Assembly: GCF_008087625.1 (NCBI RefSeq)
Contig: NZ_CP042998.1
Coordinates: forward strand, 62,001 to 126,000
DNA: 64,000 bases
Direction of reading: 5' to 3'
Source of the DNA: Aquisphaera giovannonii
GTDB taxonomy: Bacteria > Planctomycetota > Planctomycetia > Isosphaerales > Isosphaeraceae
Part shown: positions 19,815 to 23,046 of the stretch, in pieces
How positions within the stretch are numbered: the first letter of the stretch is position 1
How the letters are laid out: every line of letters begins with the position of its first letter
Program-made: the position numbers and the translations under genes
Notes under the pieces: model-generated
Database searches by the model: none
Seen by the model: only the letters and a program-made list of their open reading frames with translations
Told to the model about the DNA's origin: nothing

Positions 19815-20882
19815 TCAAGAGGCCAGCCATTCGTCGCGGTGGCTGGCGACGAACTCGTCGTCGGTCAGATTGGGGTAGTCCCGGCAGACTCGTTCGATCT
19901 CCTCCGCCTGGCCTGGGCTCAGGGTCTCGTCGGGGTCCAGGAGCCAGGGTCCTTCGAGGAGGCCCTGGCGGATGAGGACCTCGTGGATCCCGGCGATGCA
20001 GCCCGCGAATCCGTTGGCCGCGTCGAAGAGGGCGGCGTTGGCGTCGGTCGTCGCGACCGCCAGGCGAAGCAGGTTGGCGGGGACGCCGTCGCCGCGGGAG
20101 GCCGCGTCGTGGCAGGCTTCCAGCAGGTCGACGGCCCGCCGCGTCCAGGCGGCCCAGTGGCCGAGCAGCCCGCCCACGATCCGCCGCTCGACCGTCCGTC
20201 CGCCGACCCGGAAGCGGTACGGCGTGACGAGATCGAGGACGATGTTGTCGTCGTTGCCCGTGTACAGGGCGATGTCGTCGCGCCCGGATTCGCAGACGGC
20301 TCGCACCACGTCCACGGTCCGGTAGCGGTCGAACGGGGCGATCTTGATCGCGGCCACGGCCTCGATCTCGGCGAAGCCGCGCCAGAACCGATGCGACAGG
20401 TGCGGCCCGCCGACGGCCCGCTGGAGGTAGAAGCCGACCAGCGGGATGACCTCGGCCACGGCCCGGCAGTGGGCCAGCCTCGCCTCCTCGTCCGGGCCGA
20501 CTCCGGCCAGGCTCAGCAGGCCGGCGTGATAGCCCAGGTCGCGGAGCATCTCCGCCTCCTGGACGGCCTGCCTCGTCGGCCCGCAGACCCCGCCGATCCG
20601 GACCATCGGCTCTCCACGCGCCGCGTCCGCCCGGCCGAGCTCCTCGGCGACGAGCGAGAGCACGGGCCGGAACAGCCCGTGCGTCGGGTCGCGGATCGCG
20701 AACTGCGTCGTGTGCACCCCCGCGGCGATCCCCCCCGCCCCGGCCGCCGCGTAGTACCGGCAGAGGGCCCGCTGGCGACGCTCGTCGAGCCGACGCGACG
20801 AGGTCAGCGCGAGCGGCATCGCCGGGATCACGACGCCCCGGCGTAGGCTCTCCGGGATCCTCGGAGGGTCGGCACCGGACAT
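19815..20882 (-). CDS. Dihydrodipicolinate synthase family aldolase/lyase
   Basis: 355 aa. A class I aldolase TIM barrel: GVVIPAMPLALTSSRRLDER at the start, AAGAGGIAAGVHTTQFA and the predicted Schiff-base Lys in AVAAIKIAPFDRYRT. It is a divergent family member, probably acting on a keto-acid sugar derivative rather than in lysine synthesis (inference from neighbours). ATG 20882 is preferred because GGAGGA lies at the right distance; longer starts would run into the inverted-repeat element. Second-last gene of the minus-strand sugar operon. Confidence 0.85.
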   Translation of the reverse strand: MSGADPPRIPESLRRGVVIPAMPLALTSSRRLDERRQRALCRYYAAAGAGGIAAGVHTTQFAIRDPTHGLFRPVLSLVAEELGRADAARGEPMVRIGGVCGPTRQAVQEAEMLRDLGYHAGLLSLAGVGPDEEARLAHCRAVAEVIPLVGFYLQRAVGGPHLSHRFWRGFAEIEAVAAIKIAPFDRYRTVDVVRAVCESGRDDIALYTGNDDNIVLDLVTPYRFRVGGRTVERRIVGGLLGHWAAWTRRAVDLLEACHDAASRGDGVPANLLRLAVATTDANAALFDAANGFAGCIAGIHEVLIRQGLLEGPWLLDPDETLSPGQAEEIERVCRDYPNLTDDEFVASHRDEWLAS

Positions 20883-20934
20883 CGGATCAGTCCTCCAGGG
20901 GCAGGGGGATGGACGAGGCTCGTCCATCCGGAGA

Positions 20935-21098
20935 TTCAACCACGGAAAGCACGGAAAACACGGAATAATACGAACGCATAGTAGTTTTCAAATTTGACAG
21001 TATATGCAACTGTTAAAATTTTTGTTATTCATAATTATTTGGATGGCATCTTGTATTGTATGTCCCTTTCCGTGCCTTCCGTGTTTTCCGTGGTTGAA
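20935..21098. repeat. 164-bp inverted-repeat element with AT-rich core
   Basis: Two 31-nt arms, 20935-20965 and 21068-21098, are reverse complements at 28 of 31 positions by hand alignment. Each arm is built from three copies of a CACGGAAA-like unit ending in TTCAAC/GTTGAA. The 102-bp core is strongly AT-rich, unlike everything around it, and contains the palindrome TCAAATTTGA (20988-20997) and TTGACA (20994-20999). It has no gene. It sits between the epimerase stop and the aldolase start, where it could be a MITE/REP-like insertion, an attenuator or an internal promoter. Confidence 0.85.
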
Positions 21099-21124
21099 AC
21101 TCTTATGTCTTCCATCCTCCGTGC

Positions 21125-22180
21125 TCAGAACCGGCCGTCGCGGGCCTCGAAGTGCGTCGGCCTGTCCAGGGTCGGGCCTCCCTTCATGAGCCAGTCGGCG
21201 GTCAGGTCGATCAGGCGGTCGGCGTCGATACGGGGCGGGCCGAACAGGTGGATGGCCTTGCGGGCGTCGCTGAGCAGGGCGTCGGGTGCTTCGGCGCCGT
21301 GGAACCGGACGGGGCGGCCGAGGAGCTGGGCGAACCGTTCGGCGACTCGTCGGACGGAGAGGACCTCCGGCCCGGTGACGTTGAAGACCGTCGGCGGGCT
21401 GGCCAGGTGGCCGAACGCCCGGAGCGTCATCGCGTTCGCGTCCCCCTGCCAGATGGCGTTGAAGTGCCCCATCGCGAGGTCCACCGTCTCGCCCGCGAGG
21501 ACCTTCCGGCCCAGGTCCACGAGGACGCCGTAACGCATCTCGACGGCGTAGTTCAGGCGGATGAGGGCCATGGGGATGCCCAGGGCGCGAGACTGGTGCT
21601 CCAGGATCCGCTCGCGGCCCAGGCAGCTCATGCCGTACTCGCCGACCGGCCGGGGCGGGTCGGACTCCTTCGACCCACGGCCGGTCACCGGCTCCAATCC
21701 GTAGACGTTGCCGGTGGAGAACGCGACGATGCGACTCCCCCGATACCGGGCCGCGACCAGGCCGGGCAGGTACGCGTTCATGGCCCACGTCCGGGCCTCC
21801 TGCCCCGTCGCCCCGAACTTCATCGCGAACATCGAGACGATATTGGGAGCGTCCGGCAGCCGCTCGAGCGTACCGGGGTCGAGCAGGTCGGACCTGATCG
21901 TTTCGATGCCGCGCTCGCGGAGCCACTCCTCGGACCCAGCCGAGGAGAACCGCGCAACCCCGATGACCCGCCGATCGGACCGCCCGGCCGCGTCGAACGC
22001 ACGCCTCGCCATCCACGCCAACGTCGGCCCCATCTTGCCGGCCACGCCGAGGAAGATCAGGTCCCCGTCCAGCTTCGCGAACGCGTCGACGACGCCCGGC
22101 GTCGGCGTGCTGAGCAGGTCATCGAGCTGATCGACGTCGCGGATCGATTGCAGATCGCCGATCGAGGCTTCCACCGTCAT
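21125..22180 (-). CDS. NAD-dependent epimerase/dehydratase family protein
   Basis: 351 aa, extended SDR Rossmann fold with the glycine motif FLGVAGKMGPTLAWMARRA, then IVAFSTGNVYGLEPVTG and FNVTGPEVLSVRRVAERF. The active-site Tyr is present in GEYGMSCLGRE, but the usual YxxxK Lys position is Cys (Y-G-M-S-C), so classical SDR catalysis may be altered. ATG 22180 is preceded by GGGGAG. The GNAT gene ends 20 bases upstream, which puts both in one minus-strand operon. It likely modifies a nucleotide sugar or sugar acid; substrate unknown. Confidence 0.85.
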   Translation of the reverse strand: MTVEASIGDLQSIRDVDQLDDLLSTPTPGVVDAFAKLDGDLIFLGVAGKMGPTLAWMARRAFDAAGRSDRRVIGVARFSSAGSEEWLRERGIETIRSDLLDPGTLERLPDAPNIVSMFAMKFGATGQEARTWAMNAYLPGLVAARYRGSRIVAFSTGNVYGLEPVTGRGSKESDPPRPVGEYGMSCLGRERILEHQSRALGIPMALIRLNYAVEMRYGVLVDLGRKVLAGETVDLAMGHFNAIWQGDANAMTLRAFGHLASPPTVFNVTGPEVLSVRRVAERFAQLLGRPVRFHGAEAPDALLSDARKAIHLFGPPRIDADRLIDLTADWLMKGGPTLDRPTHFEARDGRF

Positions 22181-22200
22181 GGATCTCACTCCCCTGCCCT

Positions 22201-23046
22201 TCAGCCCTTTTCCGGCCCGGAACCGGCCCAGATCCGGCGCGGGTCCTCCGCCACGCGCGGCCCGCGTCCCATCCGCAGCAGCTCCCGCTCCGCGCGAAGC
22301 CCCCATGACCGGACCTGGGCCGCGGCGGGCGCATTCGCCGCCGGGACGTCGAGGATGACGGCCTCTCCCGCGTACCTCGATCGGGCATCGGCCAGGAGCG
22401 CCGGCCCGGCCCGCTCATCTCCGAGGCACGGCCCGATCTGCCGGGCCGACCTGCCCGGTCGCGAGAGCAGGAAGCCGGCGACCCGGCCCGGCTCGCCGGC
22501 CACCCGCAGGGAGTCCGGATGCTCATCGGCCAGGCTGCGGATCAGGCGGCCGCGGTCGGTCCCCGTGACCTCGCGGTCCAGGGCGATCGCCGCATCGAGA
22601 TCGAGCGGATCGGCCTTCCGCGCCATCGGCTCGCCGGACTGCTCGGCGGCCGGAGGCAGGACGCCTCGGTATCGGTCGAAGGTCGCCTCCGCGACGAAGC
22701 CGAGCGACTCATACAGCGGCCGTCCCAGCGGGGTCGCGTCCAGGCGGACTGAGCGCACACCGTTGGCGTTGAGCGACTCCAGCGCCCGGACCATCAGGGC
22801 CCGGCCAATCCCCCGGCCGCGGTATGCTTCATCGACGAGCATCATGGCGATCCAGGCCACCGGCCCGAACCGGCAGGTCGTCACCGTGCCGACCCCGACG
22901 CCATCCAGCTCGGCGACGAAGCCGCCGTCCGGCTGGAGCTCCATCTGTCGCCTCCAGTCGGCCTCGAGCTGGTTCCAACCGGCCTGCGCCACCAGGCGCC
23001 GGCCGAGGGCAAGATCCCCGATCGTCATGGGGCGGATATCGAGCAA
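22201..23046 (-). CDS. Tandem-GNAT acetyltransferase
   Basis: 281 aa. An N-terminal GNAT domain (about 1-135) has the acetyl-CoA loop MLVDEAYRGRGIGRALMVRA and GRPLYESLGFVAEATFDRY. A second GNAT-like half (about 145-270) contains LDLDAAIALDREVTGTDRGR and AVILDVPAANAPAAAQV, matching the two-domain layout of the GNAT plus Acetyltransf_18 type. The start is TTG at 23046 (LDIRPMT supplies the first beta strand); an in-frame ATG at 23028 would clip that strand. First gene of the minus-strand operon. Confidence 0.82.
   Translation of the reverse strand: MLDIRPMTIGDLALGRRLVAQAGWNQLEADWRRQMELQPDGGFVAELDGVGVGTVTTCRFGPVAWIAMMLVDEAYRGRGIGRALMVRALESLNANGVRSVRLDATPLGRPLYESLGFVAEATFDRYRGVLPPAAEQSGEPMARKADPLDLDAAIALDREVTGTDRGRLIRSLADEHPDSLRVAGEPGRVAGFLLSRPGRSARQIGPCLGDERAGPALLADARSRYAGEAVILDVPAANAPAAAQVRSWGLRAERELLRMGRGPRVAEDPRRIWAGSGPEKG

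Follow-up and report, generated by a model that had tools for sequence, protein, structure and literature searches.

The 164-bp inverted repeat at positions 20935 to 21098 of the window (the whole stretch of 64,000 nucleotides of the Aquisphaera giovannonii genome that was analysed) probably belongs, with a rough probability of 0.58, to the gene-less copies of a family of inverted-arm elements; those of the family that have a gene encode a GxxExxY nuclease, which would serve the arms in trans. As best read, the family resembles a REPtron whose palindromic arms are matched with a nuclease of the PD-(D/E)XK type instead of a Y1 transposase. The elements form a family tied to GxxExxY genes, the type of the arms matches that of the gene, the two arms of an element match each other, the site of the window element is empty or occupied by another type in relatives, and the catalytic-type residues of the protein are invariant.

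The window element and its copies

The contig that holds the window is 131,698 bp long, and the genome has 10.5 Mb. The element and its neighbours are arranged as follows.

19815 to 20882, reverse strand: downstream gene, without a Pfam match; the ATG at 20882 is the preferred start
20915 to 20934: left outer AT-rich extension (approximate, from the inverted-repeat signal of 28 elements)
20935 to 20965, forward strand: left arm, TTCAAC and then three CACGGAA units at 20941-20947, 20950-20956 and 20959-20965, with 2-nt spacers
20966 to 21067: core of 102 bp with 27% GC, without an open gene
21068 to 21098, reverse strand: right arm, three inverted CACGGAA units at 21086-21092, 21077-21083 and 21068-21074
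21099 to 21118: right outer extension (approximate, from the same 28-element signal)
21125 to 22306, reverse strand: upstream gene, NAD-dependent epimerase/dehydratase family

The inverted repeat described in the earlier note is real, with both arms present, and a repeat-finding tool lengthens each of them to 35 nt (20931-20965 and 21068-21102; 89% complementary, 102 nt between). An alternative TTG start of the downstream gene at 20939 would reach into the left arm; the ATG at 20882 was chosen. In 12 of 15 loci the downstream gene is found next to that for the epimerase, a conserved neighbourhood. That the element lies inside an operon, as had been suggested, is based solely on strand and spacing, the neighbours being on the same strand with ~240 bp between them. 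The core is indeed very AT-rich in this copy, against 73% GC in the surrounding 500 bp, but this is no trait of the family: the GC fraction of the core ranges from 0.28 to 0.74 among 28 CACGGAA elements, with the window copy the lowest. Since the 102-bp core holds no GxxExxY gene of its own, the element is classed as a gene-less derivative.

A search of the genome for copies, proposed in the earlier note, turned up many. The triple-unit pattern occurs at 46 places, 23 on each strand, while the reversed-pattern control gave 0, and about 30 elements have arms of three CACGGAA units. BLAST with the 164-bp query returned 86 matches, all of which, except the element itself, are confined to its ends. 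The arms pair as inverted repeats that are mostly 132 to 263 bp long; one pair of 612 bp encloses a gene. Arms are conserved and cores are not: among 34 cores compared, just two pairs match, one of them being a tandem neighbour, and a tblastn search of gene-less copies detected no remnant of GxxExxY in their cores. In 28 elements, the inverted repeat can be detected up to 20 nt outside CCACGG (similarity 21.1 versus 15.3 when shuffled, 0 of 2,000 shuffles as high), and in the next 20 nt further out the within-element similarity is not above chance. The 2- to 3-nt spacers of an element's two arms agree 26 out of 48 times in the 24 of these 28 elements with readable spacers, compared with 13.6 after shuffling. 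Some short elements are tandemly repeated as a whole, two or three in a row (L009 1952-2253, L168 2089-2360, L329 534-1085).

GxxExxY genes and the types of their arms

The gene enclosed by the 612-bp element (L010, C1:5105400-5106012) encodes a GxxExxY protein of 125 residues (TIGR04256, 140.8 bits; PF13366, PD-(D/E)XK, 141 bits). The genome has four GxxExxY genes. Every one of them lies between inverted arms or next to them, and each has its own type of unit.

L010: GxxExxY gene, CACGGAA arms
L009: GxxExxY gene, CACGGAT arms; between two short CACGGAT elements, not in one simple arm pair
L011: GxxExxY gene, CACAGAG arms
L012: GxxExxY gene, CACAGAT/CACGGAT arms

In L012 (1317-1990) the arms are nested: the GxxExxY gene lies inside a CACAGAT/CACGGAT pair, and this pair in turn lies inside a CACGGAT pair, as though one element had been placed within another.

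The window element shares the anatomy of these loci, inverted arms of tandem 7-nt units of the form C-N-C-N-N-A-N, and its arms are of the type of the resident gene L010. The general arm pattern was found at 207 places in the genome, compared with 5 for the control. By sorting rules that we set ourselves, the 100 of these places that were listed comprise 36 CACGGAA, 36 CACRGAG, 8 CACGGAT (9-nt period), 5 CACRGAT (10-nt period), and 15 others, which look like coding repeats or chance matches. As 85 of the 100 listed places thus belong to the four types of resident GxxExxY genes, the gene-less arms seen here follow the resident genes.

The association extends beyond this genome. Of 149 genomes sampled from the phylum, 70 have GxxExxY, with up to 15 matches per genome. 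Among the 70 GxxExxY loci with complete flanks, 57 have flanking inverted arms whose score exceeds the 95% level set by mismatched pairs, and 36 exceed the 99% level. For ParE control genes the corresponding numbers are 2 and 0 of 28, and for genes of the S23 family (PF05635) they are 24 and 20 of 27; loci at contig ends were left out of these counts (5 of 75 for GxxExxY, 3 of 30 for S23, 2 of 30 for ParE, and 7 of 30 for the Y1 transposases discussed below). The units vary between GxxExxY loci, yet they agree between both arms of a locus. Genes for S23/23S_rRNA_IVP four-helix-bundle proteins in genomes of the phylum (L111-L140) have arms of 6- to 9-nt tandem units that are unlike those of GxxExxY; the genome studied here gave no match to PF05635. 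GxxExxY was also present in seven plasmid records, and phage records gave no match; the genes L260, L261 and L262 come from entries that are labelled as plasmids, of Treponema, Bacteroides and Gemmatirosa.

The type of unit clusters on the protein tree. When the final base of the unit (A, G or T) is mapped on a tree built from 74 GxxExxY proteins, 9 changes are required; shuffled labels require 27.1 on average, and none of 200 shuffles came as low. The tree has few columns and many open forks, and near-copies add to the clustering. Left out of it were 12 of 57 arm-bearing loci, whose units were mixed or too few, as well as 7 of 29 family loci that were cut and 4 of the other 22 that lacked a clear label; the labels of 11 loci (L243-L257) were assigned by eye. 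Across genomes, arm similarity is correlated with protein similarity (rho 0.19, 0 of 1,000 permutations as high); within single genomes the two are uncorrelated (rho 0.07, 310 of 1,000). A-type arms are also what L202, L243 and L244, the nearest relatives of L010 on the tree, have, and the proteins of L243 and L244, from metagenome-assembled genomes of Desulfobulbaceae and Deltaproteobacteria, are 60% and 59% identical to that of L010. Among 45 genomes of the family, just two have more than five CACGGAA places, namely, the one studied here (G000, 46 places) and G022 (22 places); four others have one to three. G022 possesses a GxxExxY gene beside CACGGAA arms, although the arm on its left is part of an adjacent short element and the alignment scores no more than the threshold.

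The protein itself has the fold and the catalytic-type residues of a PD-(D/E)XK nuclease. In 35 GxxExxY sequences, residues G26, G28, E31, Y34, D71, E81, K83, Q95, N112 and F113 are invariant, as is the motif G-x-G-x-x-E-x-x-Y. Of these, D71, E81 and K83 are the residues of catalytic type, and the protein is a putative nuclease. The AlphaFold model (pLDDT 94) matches best to SSO0001, which we take to be a Cas4 protein (Foldseek E value of 3e-5; VIA-align Z score of 10.2, rmsd of 4.3, 100 residues aligned), followed at lower Z scores by lambda exonuclease, restriction enzymes and Holliday junction resolvases. Because these matches are PD-(D/E)XK folds of many kinds, the nearest one names the fold and not the function. 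A search of the GxxExxY profile against the sequences of solved structures gave no relative.

The same sites in related genomes

Several relatives lack any element at the window site, so that the empty sites that the earlier note had asked for do exist: the gap between the same pair of genes is empty in seven loci (L056-L061 and L063). In the sister genome G001 the gap holds a CACGGAT element, in G038 a CACGAAT element, and in G037 a degenerate element; the single GxxExxY gene of G037 (L269) has CACGAAT arms. With loci that have no element, others that carry different units, and a degenerate one, a conserved regulatory site as the sole explanation is out. According to the earlier note, a regulatory role would be favoured if the element were a single copy that every relative kept in the same place. 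This was not the outcome: the copies are many, and several relatives have no element at the site. A further pair of loci, L139 with an S23 element and L193 with a GxxExxY element, each lack the element of the other.

Gaps are also shared between the two sister genomes. Of 19 G001 loci examined, 6 share a gap, on both flanks, with elements of the genome studied here, and a seventh does so on one flank; most of them have another type of unit. With some 50 occupied gaps, we roughly estimate that fewer than one shared gap would be expected by chance. Three of four testable orthologous cores score in the top 3% of 322 null comparisons, and the window core resembles the core in the same gap of G001 with a score of 40, a value reached by 1.9% of those comparisons. 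The shared gaps and resembling cores indicate that many copies are old and that their arms changed type in place.

Such a change can be followed in L209 and L210, which are orthologous over 2.35 kb at 85% identity. Each of the six units went from C-N-C-G-A-A-G to C-N-C-N-G-A-G; the spacers and an odd third unit (CTC) were largely kept. This pattern is more in keeping with a change in a sequence-reading protein than with gene conversion of whole arms. G001 retains CACGGAT elements, and neither of its two GxxExxY genes has CACGGAT arms with the 9-nt period; a gene with such arms was either lost from G001 or never present there. The G001 counterpart of L009 (L141, 2783-2863) has a group II intron match between its CACGGAT arms, where the genome studied here has a GxxExxY gene.

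The suggestion of a non-autonomous mobile or structural element fits the many copies, the empty sites, and the existence of gene-bearing elements with the same arms that could serve in trans. Movement of the usual MITE type fits less well: cores are non-homologous except for the two near pairs, and elements occupy the same gaps in the sister genome. In the aligned orthologous gaps, which are too diverged to fix the insertion edges, no target-site duplication was identified. Given the lack of homology between cores, no recent burst of copying is visible.

A possible mechanism, its alternatives and known repeat systems

Most likely, the three 7-nt units of each arm, in both arms, would be recognition sites of a GxxExxY protein of the same type, and the cognate of the window element would be the CACGGAA-type protein of L010, acting in trans. 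The arms would fold back to give a hairpin or cruciform, which the nuclease may nick or trim, and copies would thereby be made, moved or repaired in trans, in the way that Y1 transposases (RAYT/TnpA-REP) handle REP palindromes. Action of GxxExxY on hairpins is suggested by its fold, by the symmetry of the arms, and by this analogy. We infer binding and cutting of the arms by GxxExxY at the level of DNA, by which the copies would be moved or maintained. Several findings speak against this reading: the cores of different copies are mostly not homologous, many copies are old and did not move, G001 keeps CACGGAT elements while neither of its GxxExxY genes has arms of that 9-nt-period type, arm and protein similarity are uncorrelated within single genomes, and the left arm at the G022 gene is part of another element.

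The main rival, which we consider unlikely, is an element working at the RNA level. Its hairpin would serve in 3' end formation, cutting of the RNase III type, or mRNA stability of transcripts, like the 23S rRNA intervening sequences, and GxxExxY, if it takes part at all, would cut RNA or be a passenger. The predicted coding-strand RNA fold of the window element is very stable (-62 kcal/mol; z score of -7.7; 0 of 200 shuffles equally good). By heuristic gene calls, 15 of 33 elements lie between convergent genes and 5 between divergent genes, the other 13 having neighbours on one strand. The persistence of elements in the same gaps of the sister genome and the compensating change of the L209/L210 arms would also be accommodated, as would the presence, in arms of similar build, of S23 proteins, which are known from rRNA intervening sequences according to an excerpt of PMC4990558. 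Structure alone, however, leaves unexplained why the unit follows the type of GxxExxY, why just the four resident types are found in the 100 listed places of 207, and why six units changed together with their spacers kept.

It is improbable that the element is an ordinary MITE, derived from a standard insertion sequence by internal deletion and mobilised by the transposase of that sequence. Terminal inverted repeats, small size and many intergenic copies are what a MITE would have, and the genome does contain Y1 transposases (six matches). In relatives, however, the inverted repeats that flank 16 of 23 Y1 genes (L296-L325) are self-complementary REP-type hairpins and not triple-unit arms, as judged by eye, and the copies studied here are not homologous along their length. 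In an unsystematic survey of the genes inside triple-unit arms no transposase was seen, and the gene-bearing relatives encode a PD-(D/E)XK protein. We give hardly any credence to a passive palindrome, homogenised in its tandem units by replication slippage and kept alike in its arms by template switching without any protein, which would account for arms that are more alike within an element than the family average, spacers included, and for the joint change of both arms in L209/L210, but which predicts neither the tie to GxxExxY genes, nor one unit in dozens of unlinked places, nor the clustering of types on the protein tree, and which would, with longer conversion tracts, not have skipped the spacers and odd third unit as the changes in L210 did.

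A system of a GxxExxY nuclease matched to its arms would have its closest parallel in REPtrons, REP palindromes with a TnpA-REP/RAYT enzyme of the HuH Y1 type, in which repeats and enzyme are reported to coevolve (parts of PMC6006769 and PMC3733652). As those parts describe them, REPtrons likewise have one type of gene per type of repeat, repeats flanking the gene, many gene-less intergenic copies, and several types per genome. They differ in their HuH enzyme, the one here having a PD-(D/E)XK fold, and in their repeats, which are self-complementary hairpins of 20 to 40 nt with a GTAG or CGTC foot (PMC3733652, in part), unlike runs of 7-nt units in inverted arms that are tens to hundreds of bases apart. 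The gene enclosed by the arms encodes GxxExxY and not a Y1 HuH protein, and the window arms have no GTAG or CGTC foot on a hairpin of 20 to 40 nt, as REPs and BIMEs would. With enzyme and repeat anatomy both different, the system is REPtron-like but not a member of the REPtrons.

The nearest published things are TIRtrons, MITEs, and rRNA intervening sequences. TIRtrons (TIR-associated tyrosine transposases) also have a small gene between terminal inverted repeats, some of which are dispersed in the genome, but their enzyme is a Y1 transposase, and the portion of PMC3733652 that describes them gives a GGGGWSAS motif for some repeats and no triple 7-nt units. MITEs such as Chunjie of Geobacter uraniireducens are similarly short, gene-less and intergenic, with inverted terminal repeats and a reported occurrence in an operon (PMC10969869, in part); compared with Chunjie as described there, the copies studied here have neither a shared core nor a known parent transposase. 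The 23S rRNA intervening sequences with an S23 open reading frame (ORF) have inverted terminal repeats around a small ORF, form a stable hairpin and have been proposed to be mobile, according to the excerpt of PMC4990558. They resemble the present elements in repeats, small ORF and hairpin, and S23-family genes also occur outside rRNA in tandem-unit arms; they differ in that the window element lies between protein genes of a genome without PF05635 and that the protein of its family is GxxExxY. Our searches of openly licensed PMC papers brought up nothing on the present elements or on GxxExxY or S23 genes within arms of tandem units, and the papers that name GxxExxY give no function for it and do not treat elements.

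A palindrome unit that follows the type of an enzyme suggests a little-studied self-spreading repeat system. Tentatively, and with somewhat less than even odds, minimal repeat systems of this kind may be widespread: one small GxxExxY nuclease would read runs of 7-nt units in inverted arms, spread or maintain gene-less copies in trans, and drag the units of all sites along as its specificity changes, and S23 proteins would run a parallel class with other units. If such a parallel class exists, the 23S rRNA intervening sequences would originate in intergenic mobile elements, and the tie to S23 makes that origin testable. Six sites changing at once with the type of protein likewise make sequence specificity testable from sequence alone. 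Should GxxExxY proteins prove to be nucleases matched to repeats, one explanation would cover both a gene family and a repeat that are each common and so far unexplained, and a second, unrelated class of enzymes would do for these repeats what Y1 transposases do for REPs.
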